From positions 186,001 through 250,000 of the forward strand of contig NZ_FOJW01000001.1 of the NCBI RefSeq assembly GCF_900112045.1: 64,000 bases of DNA. The letters run 5' to 3'. Shown here in pieces: positions 8,648-12,447 of the stretch. The stretch comes from Lentibacillus halodurans. Its GTDB lineage: Bacteria; Bacillota; Bacilli; Bacillales; Amphibacillaceae. The first letter of the stretch is position 1. Every line of letters starts with the position of its first letter. Both the position numbers and the translations under genes were made by a program. The notes under the pieces are model-generated. The model saw only the letters and a list, made by a program, of their open reading frames with translations, made no database searches and was not told where the DNA came from.

Positions 8648-8864
8648 CCTTTCGTTTGAAGAGGCTATGCTCGAATTGGAGAAGATTGTGGAAAAACTGG
8701 AAAAAGGAGATGTGCCTTTAGAAAAAGCAATCTCATATTATCAGGAAGGTATGCATCTTTCTAAGGTGTGTAACGATAAATTAACCAATGTTCAGGAAAA
8801 GATGACTAAAATCATGAACGAGCAGGGACAATTTGAAACGTTTGAAATACAGGAGGAAGAATGA
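8631..8864 (+). CDS. xseB: Exodeoxyribonuclease VII small subunit
   Basis: 77 residues with the family core [32 protein letters not shown], a helical hairpin that wraps the XseA coiled coil. It starts within xseA after a strong AAAGGAGGAAAAT site and ends overlapping the ispA start by four bases. Confidence 0.95.
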
Positions 8865-9751
8865 TCGTGCAGCAGGAACTTAACGACTTTATCAATACAA
8901 ATAAAGAGCTGATTCAACATGAACTCCGCCATCATTTGCACCAGCTGGATGTACCTGAACGACTGAAGGCTTCGATGATTTATTCGATACAAGCGGGGGG
9001 GAAACGGCTGAGACCTGTTCTTTTCATGGCAAGTTATAATGCATACAATCATGATTTAAATAAAGCACTCTCACCAGCCGTCGCACTAGAAATGATCCAT
9101 ACGTACTCCCTGATTCATGATGACTTGCCGGCGATGGATGACGATGACCTCCGGCGCGGACAGCCCACAAATCATAAAAAGTATGATGAAGCTACGGCTA
9201 TTTTGGCTGGTGATGCTTTATTGACATTCAGTTTTGAACTCATTATAAATGATCCCCATTTAACAGATCAGCAAAAGATACACCTCGTTCAGCTCCTTTC
9301 AGAGGCAAGCGGTCCTAAAGGGATGGTGGCCGGACAGATACTTGATATAGAAGCCGAGAAAAAAGCTGTTTCACTTGAGGAGCTGGAAACAATCCATACG
9401 CTTAAAACAGGGGAGTTATTCCGTTATGCCATTCGATCAGGAGCTTATCTTGGTGAGGCAACACACGAGCAAATTGTTCATTTAGATGAATTTGCCCATT
9501 ACCTCGGACTCATTTTTCAGGTGCAGGATGATATCCTGGATGTAACCGGTGAACCAGGGAAAACCGGAAAACCTGTCGGCAGTGATGAAGCAAATGAAAA
9601 AAATACATACGTTAAATTATTAGGGCTTGAAGGAGCAATTGAAAAGAAGAAGTATTATGTCAAAAAGGCAAATAAAGCATTGTATGATGCGAATGCCGAA
9701 TCATCCTATCTGATGTCGCTGGCCGATTATTTCAGTAGCCGTGATCATTAA
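8861..9751 (+). CDS. ispA: Farnesyl diphosphate synthase (polyprenyl synthetase)
   Basis: 296 residues. Condenses isopentenyl diphosphate with dimethylallyl and geranyl diphosphate to farnesyl diphosphate, the precursor of undecaprenyl and menaquinone chains. Both aspartate-rich motifs are visible: [15 protein letters not shown] and [13 protein letters not shown], as is GGKRLRPVL for diphosphate binding. GGAGG lies just upstream of the ATG at 8861. In most Bacillaceae dxs follows ispA closely; here the OLE RNA and oapA follow, and dxs is missing. Confidence 0.96.
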
Positions 9752-9854: not shown

Positions 9855-9863
9855 TGTTATAAT
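9855..9863 (+). promoter_or_regulatory. Extended -10 promoter for OLE RNA
   Basis: TGTTATAAT is a perfect extended -10 element about 100 bases after ispA; a second -10-like TATACT follows at 9863-9868. No -35 match lies at normal spacing (TTGATT at 9830 is 22 bases away). A start near 9870 would give OLE its own transcript in addition to read-through from the nusB-ispA operon. The same TGTTATAAT occurs upstream of spo0A at 15904-15912. Confidence 0.5.
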
Positions 9864-9874
9864 ATACTCATAAG

Positions 9875-10458
9875 TGGAATGGTGCAGTATTCTAGTCAGC
9901 CCTCCGTTCCTGAAGGCGGGCCTAAAAATCCGCCATAGGGCACATCGATGAAGTTCCTTGTGCCGGCTTGAGGCGCCCAGCCTTGGGTCGGTGCTGGGAG
10001 TTAAGGTTTTCGGGCGATCCGCAAAGGCATGTGGGCGTTGACCCGATTACCGTGGAGGCCCATCTCTGTAGTGTGATCTAAGCTAGATTCCATTATGGAA
10101 TGGGGTATGAACCTGTGGAATAGGGTTAGGGTGACCTTATTTACAGCGTAGCCTGCCTTGAGTGGTGGTGAGGGGATTAGGGTTTTAATCGACGATTCCA
10201 GGTGGCCACTGGATGGTCTATGGTCCCTATGAAATCATCACTGCAAAAGAGGCTAGGGAGCGGTCAAAGGCTGTTGAGGAAAACTCCTAGACTGTTCTAT
10301 GACATTTAAAAGGCATTATAGTGCGGACTAAGTGGCAATCCAGTCCGGCATTCGGCAACGATGTCGAGGCGGATTTAAAGGGGAACCACCTTTATGGCAA
10401 CATAGGGCATCCGCTTGGGAAAACCTACTGGACCTAAGCCGCAGTTTTTACCTTTTAA
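9875..10458 (+). ncRNA. ole: OLE RNA (ornate, large, extremophilic RNA)
   Basis: About 590 bases without a credible reading frame, richer in G than its surroundings and full of short stems. Examples are GGCAC...GTGCC (9937-9964), CCAGC...GCTGG (~9978-9998) and ATTCCATTATGGAAT (~10088-10102). The call rests on three points: the length matches OLE (about 600 nt); it lies directly after ispA in the nusB-folD-xseA-xseB-ispA series, as in Bacillus halodurans; and the next gene encodes an OapA-like membrane protein. In B. halodurans, OLE RNA forms a membrane-bound particle with OapA and other proteins and is needed for tolerance of cold, short-chain alcohols and raised magnesium. Both ends are approximate, the 3' end being placed at GCCGCAGTTTTTACC. 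The exact fold has not been tested here. Confidence 0.9.
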
Positions 10459-10502
10459 ATGACCATTCCTGTCTGTACATAAATGATTAAACAGGGGTAA
10501 AA

Positions 10503-11096
10503 ATGAAGCCGCAAACTAAAAAATCTTTAAAATTCAGTGTTAGTATTGCCGTTATCACGTTTGTGCTAGCGGCTATTTTTTCAGTTGTTTCCGAATCGAT
10601 TCTCAGTAATGTGATCTGGATATTCGGATTATTAATCGTGTTTATCATCGTGTTTGTAGGGGTTATCTTTGATATGATGGGAATAGCTGCCACTTCGGCT
10701 GTTGAAAAGCCATTTCACGCTATGGCAGCGGAAAAGGTTACCGGTGCAAAAGAAGCAGTGAATATTATACGGAATGCTGATAAATTTGCCAGTTTTTGTA
10801 ATGATGTAATTGGGGATATATCCGGTGTGGTCAGTGGTACAGCGTCGGCAACAGTCGTATTGCAAATTGCCGACTTGTTTAATCAGGGTGATGGTTCTTC
10901 ACTTCAGATAGTTCTATCTGTTGTACTGGCGAGCCTTGTTGCGGCATTGACTGTTGGCGGCAAAGCAGTAGGCAAATATGTCGCGATTAACGCATCAACC
11001 GAGCTTATTTTTTTTGCCGGGAAAGTGATCGCCTTTATTGAAAAAAATTTAAAAATTCGCCTCCTTCCTAATGAAAGTAAGGAAGCCAAAAAATAA
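10503..11096 (+). CDS. oapA: OLE-associated membrane protein OapA
   Basis: 197 residues with about four hydrophobic segments (~13-32, 37-60, ~100-130, 133-155) and a basic C-terminal tail. It has no enzyme motif. The conserved polar core is AVEKPFHAMAAEKVTGAKEAV followed by FCNDVIGDISGVVSG, whose two aspartates (101 and 105) lie at a membrane entry. The position directly downstream of OLE RNA matches OapA, which anchors OLE RNA in the membrane as part of a large ribonucleoprotein. AGGGG lies upstream of the ATG. tlyA follows after 50 bases, with no dxs between. Confidence 0.88.
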   Translation: MKPQTKKSLKFSVSIAVITFVLAAIFSVVSESILSNVIWIFGLLIVFIIVFVGVIFDMMGIAATSAVEKPFHAMAAEKVTGAKEAVNIIRNADKFASFCNDVIGDISGVVSGTASATVVLQIADLFNQGDGSSLQIVLSVVLASLVAALTVGGKAVGKYVAINASTELIFFAGKVIAFIEKNLKIRLLPNESKEAKK

Positions 11097-11146
11097 TTTG
11101 CGTTTTTTAACGCAGCAATCAAATTTAAGGACAAAGGGTATCAGTT

Positions 11147-11974
11147 ATGACAAAAAAGCGTTTGGATATTTTGCTGGTGGAACGAAACCTGGCCGACACC
11201 AGGGAGAAAGCAAAACGGATTATTATGGCTGGACTGGTTTTCACAGAGCAGCAACGTCTGGACAAGCCTGGCACGAAAGTTGAAGCGTCCATTCCTTTAA
11301 CTGTTAAAGGGAAATTATTGCCTTATGTCGGACGTGGCGGGTTAAAACTCGAAAAAGCATTAAAGCATTTTTCCATCACGTTAAAAGACAGGATTATGAT
11401 GGATATCGGTTCATCTACCGGGGGTTTTACGGATTGTGCACTACAGCATGGTGCGAAGCTTTGTTATGCCATTGATGTTGGCTACAACCAGCTGGATTGG
11501 AAACTTCGAAATGATGACCGGGTCATTGTAATGGAGCGAACGAATTTCCGCTATGTTACACCGGATATGATCGGGCATGGCCTACCTGATTTTGTGACGA
11601 TTGATGTATCATTTATCTCCCTGAGGTTGATTTTGCCTGTGTTGAGTCAGCTGCTCCAATCGGACAGCGATGTGATCGCCTTAATCAAGCCGCAGTTTGA
11701 AGCCGGACGTGATCAGGTTGGAAATAAAGGAATCGTCCGTGACAAAAGCATACATATTGGTGTCTTGGAGAAAATTGTAATGATTGCCGAAGAGGAAGGG
11801 TATCAGCTGTTTGATTTGACTTATTCGCCAATAACCGGTGGTGACGGCAACATCGAATTTTTAGCTCATTTAGGCTGGAAAAAAGATAAAGCAGGAATTG
11901 GAATGACAAATGTAGAAATAAATAACTTAGTGGAAAACGCACACCATACGTTTCACACAAAAGACATTAAATGA
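11147..11974 (+). CDS. yqxC: TlyA/YqxC family rRNA 2'-O-methyltransferase
   Basis: 275 residues. An N-terminal S4 RNA-binding domain (residues ~4-65: [22 protein letters not shown]) is fused to an FtsJ/RrmJ-type methyltransferase with the SAM loop [17 protein letters not shown] and the later motifs [11 protein letters not shown] and [11 protein letters not shown]. TlyA relatives methylate ribosomal RNA; annotation as a hemolysin is historical. The stop overlaps the region where argR begins. Confidence 0.93.
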
Positions 11975-11997
11975 CGGGTCAGTATTGGAGGCCTCCC

Positions 11998-12447
11998 ATG
12001 AGTAAAATTCAGCGCCATATTAAAATACGCGAACTCATAACGAATAACGAAGTAGAAACGCAGGACGAGCTTGTCGATGAGTTGAAATCGCTCGGCTATA
12101 ATGTGACTCAGGCTACCGTTTCCCGTGATATTAAAGATTTGCATCTCGTTAAAGTACCCACATCCAACGGCCGTTATAAATATAGTTTGCCTGCGGATCA
12201 GCGTTTTAATCCGTTAGATAAATTAAAGCGCTTAATCAGGGATGCATTTGTGAAAATTGAGCATACGAGCCATTTCATTGTTTTAAAAACGTTGCCTGGC
12301 AACGCACATGCTATCGGTGTACTGATTGATAATCTGGATTGGAATGAAATTATGGGCACCATTTGCGGTGATGATACTTGCCTGATTATTTGCAGAACGG
12401 AGGATGACTCAGCTGCCATTCAGCAGCGTTTTTTAAGTATGCTTTGA
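11998..12447 (+). CDS. argR: Arginine repressor ArgR/AhrC
   Basis: 149 residues from the ATG at 11998; the frame is open from 11971, but TGGAGG at 11986-11991 favours the later start, which matches the family N terminus. A winged-helix DNA-binding domain (residues ~1-70, [17 protein letters not shown]) is joined to a C-terminal oligomerisation and arginine-binding domain with [15 protein letters not shown] and [12 protein letters not shown]. It represses arginine synthesis and activates its breakdown when arginine is bound. No ARG box is obvious within its own operon. Confidence 0.96.

Follow-up and report, generated by a model that had tools for sequence, protein, structure and literature searches.

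The ole-oapA locus

The 64 kb stretch of DNA analysed here (the window) contains a gene for the noncoding OLE RNA, a large bacterial RNA that belongs to a known class and remains puzzling, at positions 9863-10482 of the + strand (620 nt, full length by Rfam match and covariation). The open reading frame (ORF) of oapA (10503-11096, +) begins 20 nt after the end of OLE and encodes OLE-associated protein A (OapA), a 197-amino-acid membrane protein with a predicted CNNM-like fold, recognized by its DxxxD motif and its position 3' of OLE. This RNA-protein pair is a complete ole-oapA locus, a Lentibacillus-like member of the known OLE class, and taken by itself the locus is an ordinary and well-preserved member of that class.

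A cmscan search of the window with the 4227 families of Rfam 15 gave a single match at gathering level: RF01071 (OLE) at 9863-10482 (+), covering model positions 1-616 of 616 with 521.6 bits and an E value of 4e-150; the cut-off of this family is 50 bits. Only one OLE match at E <= 0.001 is found in the whole 3.67 Mb genome. A preliminary description of this DNA had proposed a structured OLE RNA of ~590 nt, starting at 9855, between ispA and a membrane-protein gene. The full-length covariance-model match bears out the identity and the location; the RNA is longer than proposed, and the suggested start was 8 nt too early.

The alternative that this is a decayed ole gene, its RNA recognizable but no longer working, has precedents among relatives: in genome G254 an oapA split into two frames (L146:6536-7121) lies beside a full-length OLE, and OapA is in two pieces in G105 and G179. 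In the window, however, oapA is intact, 148 of the 155 Rfam pairs read in its OLE are standard, the genes for partner proteins are present, and the OLE score lies well inside the range of 253 to 546 bits of the 126 matches from genomes of the same order, so that decay is scarcely credible here.

Conserved structure of the OLE RNA

Covariation was assessed in 104 unique sequences, which remained when 7 duplicates were dropped from a set of 111 (80 named loci, 30 further loci, and the window); as a control, the 3' letters were shuffled 200 times, a procedure that does not keep relatedness. The 18 Rfam helices have 58-100% standard pairs, and 17 of them exceed the best of the 200 shuffles. The margin ranges from wide (helix 10367-10374/10409-10416, 99.3% against a shuffle maximum of 75.8) to narrow (10155-10159/10249-10253, 97.9 against 97.7); helix 10019-10023/10030-10034 ties with the shuffles at 100. 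Compensatory changes among relatives, on which the preliminary description had made its proposal depend, are abundant in these sequences.

Covariation also points to two helices outside the Rfam structure, named here putative P3 and P3.1, which would correspond to the proposed membrane-spanning rod; their 5' strands lie at 9896-9908 (+) and their 3' strands at 10259-10274 (+). Putative P3 (9896-9901/10269-10274) has 83.5% standard pairs (shuffle maximum 78.2) and putative P3.1 (9904-9908/10259-10263) has 95.6% (shuffle maximum 83.1), each with 71 double-change cells; the outermost P3 pair tested, 9896/10274, does not form in the 104 sequences. The length of this element is fixed (5' strands in 104/104 and 103/104 sequences, 3' strands in 102/104 and 104/104), but fixed length was discarded as a test of the membrane rod, as most other helices are equally fixed. 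Of two candidate pairings for the 5' end, 9891-9895/10287-10291 lies above the shuffles (99.6% versus a maximum of 99.0) and 9878-9883/10291-10296 does not (99.0 versus 99.7, same sequences).

The loops through which OLE molecules touch each other in the cryo-EM structures of the OLE dimer, as described in PMC12286853 and PMC12265935, are all kept in the window; the contacts themselves, including that of the GGCC loop L9, are taken from PMC12286853. P4 (9915-9934, +) carries the A-rich dimer loop L4, which reads UAAAAAU in 104/104 sequences, and L5 (GCCCAG) and L6 (GGCAUG) are each present in all 104. The self-complementary GGCC kissing loop of P9 (10204-10207, +) is found in 101/104; the exceptions are two gapped rows and one GACC. 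An AUCGAU palindrome at 9944-9949 (+) is a putative P4a site for OapA, a placement made here from the sequence; PMC12265935 describes OapA binding to palindromes near P2 and P4a.

The P5-P6 arm of the Rfam structure spans 9954-10051 (+) and corresponds to the region that in Halalkalibacterium halodurans contains the OapC k-turn and the bS21 site (binding regions as given in PMC9723947 and PMC12054373). The P6 stem of H. halodurans contains CCUCCU, described in PMC12054373 as an anti-Shine-Dalgarno mimic. This motif is absent from the window OLE and from 100 of the 104 sequences overall; it is not class-defining, and its absence leaves membership in the OLE class intact. The rarity of the literal match (4/104) bears on the published description of the bS21 site. 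Mutants M1-M3, in which the mimic is altered and pairing is kept, still bind (PMC12054373), so that the site may depend on conserved G-C pairs and not on the mimicry.

OapA and its co-occurrence with OLE

The DxxxD motif of OapA (residues 101-105, DVIGD) is encoded at 10803-10817 (+); D101 and D105 are invariant in 39 aligned rows of OapA and the second OapA described below. The motif is present at 80/80 named OapA loci, and OLE lies just upstream of oapA at the same 80/80, these loci having been collected via OapA. The gap between OLE and oapA was 25-123 nt in the 39 that were checked among 126 OLE-bearing genomes of the order. The assignment of the membrane protein to OapA, made earlier from its position and helices, is upheld by full-length alignment, DxxxD included, to proteins whose genes lie immediately 3' of OLE, a set that does not contain the H. 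halodurans protein. The named oapA loci closest to that of the window are from Lentibacillus, the best four having 83-87% identity at the protein level, and a FastTree phylogeny of five neighbouring proteins groups the window with four Lentibacillus (local support 100).

The predicted model of OapA contains five long helices (3-34, 39-65, 92-125, 133-163, and 165-183) and matches the CNNM transmembrane fold; hydropathy windows fall at 7-50, 102, 129-140, and 160-161, and the model is compatible with the four membrane-spanning helices expected of OapA, a protein of ~21 kDa. At the sequence level OapA scores 9.9 bits against the CNNM family PF01595 (Pfam cut-off 28.4). An OapA profile found nothing meaningful among PDB sequences.

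OLE and OapA occur in the identical 107 of 146 genomes of the family and the identical 126 of 199 genomes of the order; the two samples overlap by 7, giving 229 of 338 genomes combined. These are raw genome counts, uncorrected for kinship, as are the dxs and CNNM counts given below (the dxs count on the tree excepted). OapA was called in the order sample at E <= 1e-12, a level at which weaker OapA-only genomes could be missed, and OLE searches over 40 genomes used stricter filters, with which weak matches may be lost. Seven weak OapA-like matches in an OLE-negative genus (g2) were set aside as DUF5058 after two of them had been identified as such, one by Pfam and the other by sight. In the OLE-negative genome G013, dxs lies ~0.3 kb after ispA, and neither OLE nor oapA was found at this ispA-dxs locus. 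CNNM genes are fewer in OLE-positive than in OLE-negative family genomes (1.56 versus 2.49, p 5.6e-8, again with kinship uncorrected); 46 of the 107 OLE-positive family genomes have at least two CNNM genes, and the genome of the window has one.

In nine genomes, from families f1, f20, f36, f37, and f46, a second, intact OapA-like frame lies apart from OLE (L032:7143-7739, L033:7119-7715, L034:7114-7707, L035:7037-7642, L036:7424-8020, L140:6191-6808, L141:6043-6675, L142:6285-6914, and L143:6373-6957). These proteins are 42-47% identical to the window OapA, keep DxxxD, and group together as a single clade when placed with 23 other OapA rows (support 100/99). Broken or partial copies occur in four more genomes (G252, G272, G265, and G033). 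OLE was not found beside the second OapA at Rfam gathering level in L032-L038 or at E values up to 5 in L032, L034, and L036; a sequence-profile scan also found none in seven upstream regions (best E 1.3) or in L140-L144, where the profile scan was the sole method. In the main texts searched, 'paralog' together with OLE RNA and OapA refers to MpfA and YlxQ or belongs to a reference title, and does not refer to OapA, which does not prove the point unpublished.

T-box leaders lie near the second OapA at four loci (L033:5382-6056, L035:1882-2134, L036:6522-6775, and L037:8839-9096); that of L036 is next to a gene for a class I tRNA synthetase, and L033 has group II intron matches.

An OapA encoded with an intact frame and no OLE found in cis, together with the metal-transporter-like predicted fold, could suggest that OLE is only an mRNA leader or expression device for OapA, which would be the sole working part and act as a CNNM-like transporter. 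The strict co-occurrence of the two argues otherwise, as does the restriction of the second OapA to OLE-bearing genomes (all 13, intact or not), and strains in which either ole or oapA is deleted are described as having similar growth defects (PMC10898510); this reading is very unlikely.

Neighbouring genes and the isoprenoid pathway

The gene order at the locus is nusB-folD-xseA-xseB-ispA-OLE-oapA-tlyA-argR-recN, nusB and recN being named by eye. The upstream context from nusB to ispA is as the preliminary description gave it, in parallel with an order in B. halodurans that we take to be the same. The upstream neighbour ispA (8861-9751, +) encodes farnesyl diphosphate synthase (NF045485, 399.9 bits). 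Directly after oapA is a gene for a tlyA-type rRNA methyltransferase (11147-11974, +; TIGR00478), which by gap analysis follows at the place occupied by dxs in many relatives. Two genes downstream of oapA is argR (11971-12447); PMC12265935 mentions ArgR, as an unpublished result, among the partners of OLE.

According to PMC10898510, dxs is often adjacent to ole and oapA, and this adjacency is one argument given there for a link between OLE and glyceraldehyde-3-phosphate metabolism. Regulation of isoprenoid or glyceraldehyde-3-phosphate metabolism through the neighbours ispA and dxs could accordingly be proposed as the main role of OLE-OapA, and ispA does adjoin OLE in the window. However, dxs is present neither in the slot after oapA (11096-11147) nor, at the family cut-off, anywhere in the genome (best 80 bits versus 466); the genome has instead a mevalonate operon (L136:3217-7794) encoding HMG-CoA reductase, mevalonate kinase, diphosphomevalonate decarboxylase, and phosphomevalonate kinase. 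Among the 107 OLE-positive family genomes, 65 have mevalonate kinase without dxs, 30 have dxs only, and 12 have both; the corresponding numbers for OLE-negative genomes are 27, 10, and 2. An association of OLE with dxs was not found in the family (42 with and 65 without dxs versus 12 and 27, Fisher p 0.44); dxs-positive genomes were the 53 above the cut-off plus G336, which has dxs in two pieces, and a partial match in G292 was left out.

The 81 loci placed on a tree all have OLE; judged by gap length, 21 of them have an empty dxs slot, and the tree requires at least 3 changes of the slot, at least 2 of these being forced by well-supported branches. The filled slot of L047, the sole one read as an ORF, holds a frame of 630 amino acids recognized by eye, and family-level dxs matches lie directly after oapA in further genomes. 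The argument from dxs adjacency does not hold in general in these genomes: because 65 of the 107 OLE-bearing family genomes lack dxs, the idea of a tie between OLE and Dxs is weakened, and since dxs adjacency and OLE do not go together across the family, OLE is not generally linked to Dxs chemistry. A main role in this metabolism is therefore improbable; a link of OLE through ispA alone may exist. In the main texts searched, treatments of OLE RNA that touch on isoprenoids were found without mention of mevalonate, and OLE RNA was not found together with Lentibacillus; neither result proves the point unpublished.

Partner proteins and a shortened OLE

Genes for the other proteins of the particle are present elsewhere in the genome, where the preliminary description had suggested looking for oapB and oapC. 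The OapB gene matches PDB 7k9b, 'OLE-associated protein B' (E 1e-31), and lies between adk and rpsM; the OapC gene matches YbxF structures and lies between rpoC and rpsL (both locations by eye). A bS21 gene is present as well.

One genome of the same order, G120 (a single contig with an estimated completeness of 83%), has an OLE of only 489 nt (253 bits, L145:6144-6632). It lacks the AUCGAU palindrome, P5, P6, P7, and most of P8, and ~47 unrelated nucleotides stand in place of the equivalent of window positions ~9943-10099; the 5' segment, L4, the P9 GGCC loop, and domain 2 are kept. The oapA frame of G120 is intact, and OapB and bS21 are kept. Its one L7Ae-family match is read as YlxQ rather than OapC because it lies beside a putative nusA (by eye). 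Each of four compared genomes has two L7Ae-family matches, of which one is in the rpoC-rpsL interval; in G120 this interval (L157) contains no OapC-like frame. No oapC gene is thus detectable in G120, and the part of OLE to which OapC and bS21 bind in H. halodurans is missing as well, a finding from a single genome that sets no trend. Such comparison with relatives gives a hint of the parts that the OLE particle can do without. An assembly fault in the RNA may be involved but is made less likely because the loss of oapC is at a separate locus. Published OLE variants include forms with short P7-P9 and forms without P7 and P8 (PMC11332333).

These observations could be joined in a modular reading, which is offered tentatively and is, taken as a whole, doubtful. 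OapA would be indispensable, together with domain 2, the P9 kissing loop, and the A-tract of L4, and these would make up the core; the P4a-P8 arm, which would hold the OapC k-turn, the bS21 site, and one OapA palindrome, would be an accessory sensing module, lost with oapC in G120; the dxs link would be incidental; and in some species the OapA paralog, which has no OLE of its own, would join the OLE particle in trans as part of a heteromer. A natural variant without oapC and the OapC-binding arm would offer a ready-made test of which RNA parts serve each stress response.

Proposed function of the OLE particle

The best explanation, with a probability of about 0.93, is that the window comes from a Lentibacillus-like bacterium and contains its ole-oapA locus, encoding an RNA particle that would reside at the membrane with OapA, OapB, OapC, and bS21. 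The RNA family, the covariation, the likeness of OapA and its predicted fold, the partner genes, and the co-occurrence of OLE and OapA form the computed basis of this explanation; we infer from them that a functional particle exists in this genome. The RNA would fold into the OLE structure and dimerize, most likely via three sets of loops: L4 with its A-rich sequence, L5/L6, and the P9 loop with GGCC. By analogy to published work on H. halodurans, from which binding, membrane localization, and stress function are carried over, copies of the CNNM-like OapA would hold OLE at the cell membrane, and OapB, OapC, and bS21 would bind the RNA. The particle most likely adjusts the handling of divalent metals (Mg2+/Mn2+) at the membrane and, through this, how well the cell withstands cold, alcohol, high Mg2+, and poor carbon sources.

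Comparison with known systems

The window OLE shares with the full-length class of Fernando and Breaker (2024; PMC11332333) the full-length model match, the helices of domains 1 and 2, the dimer loops L4, L5, L6, and L9, and an oapA directly 3'; it differs in having no dxs downstream. Compared with the OLE of H. halodurans, the difference noted is in P6, which there has the anti-Shine-Dalgarno match and in the window does not. OapA was compared with its H. halodurans counterpart by features, the sequence alignment being made with the named relatives instead; the likeness comprises a length of about 200 amino acids, long hydrophobic helices, DxxxD, a CNNM-like predicted fold, and a gene placed after ole. 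From the CNNM/CorB/CorC/MpfA Mg2+ transporters (PF01595), in contrast, OapA differs by an extra N-terminal helix, the DxxxD motif, the lack of CBS or CorC domains, and a sequence score below the Pfam cut-off; its predicted transmembrane fold is CNNM-like.
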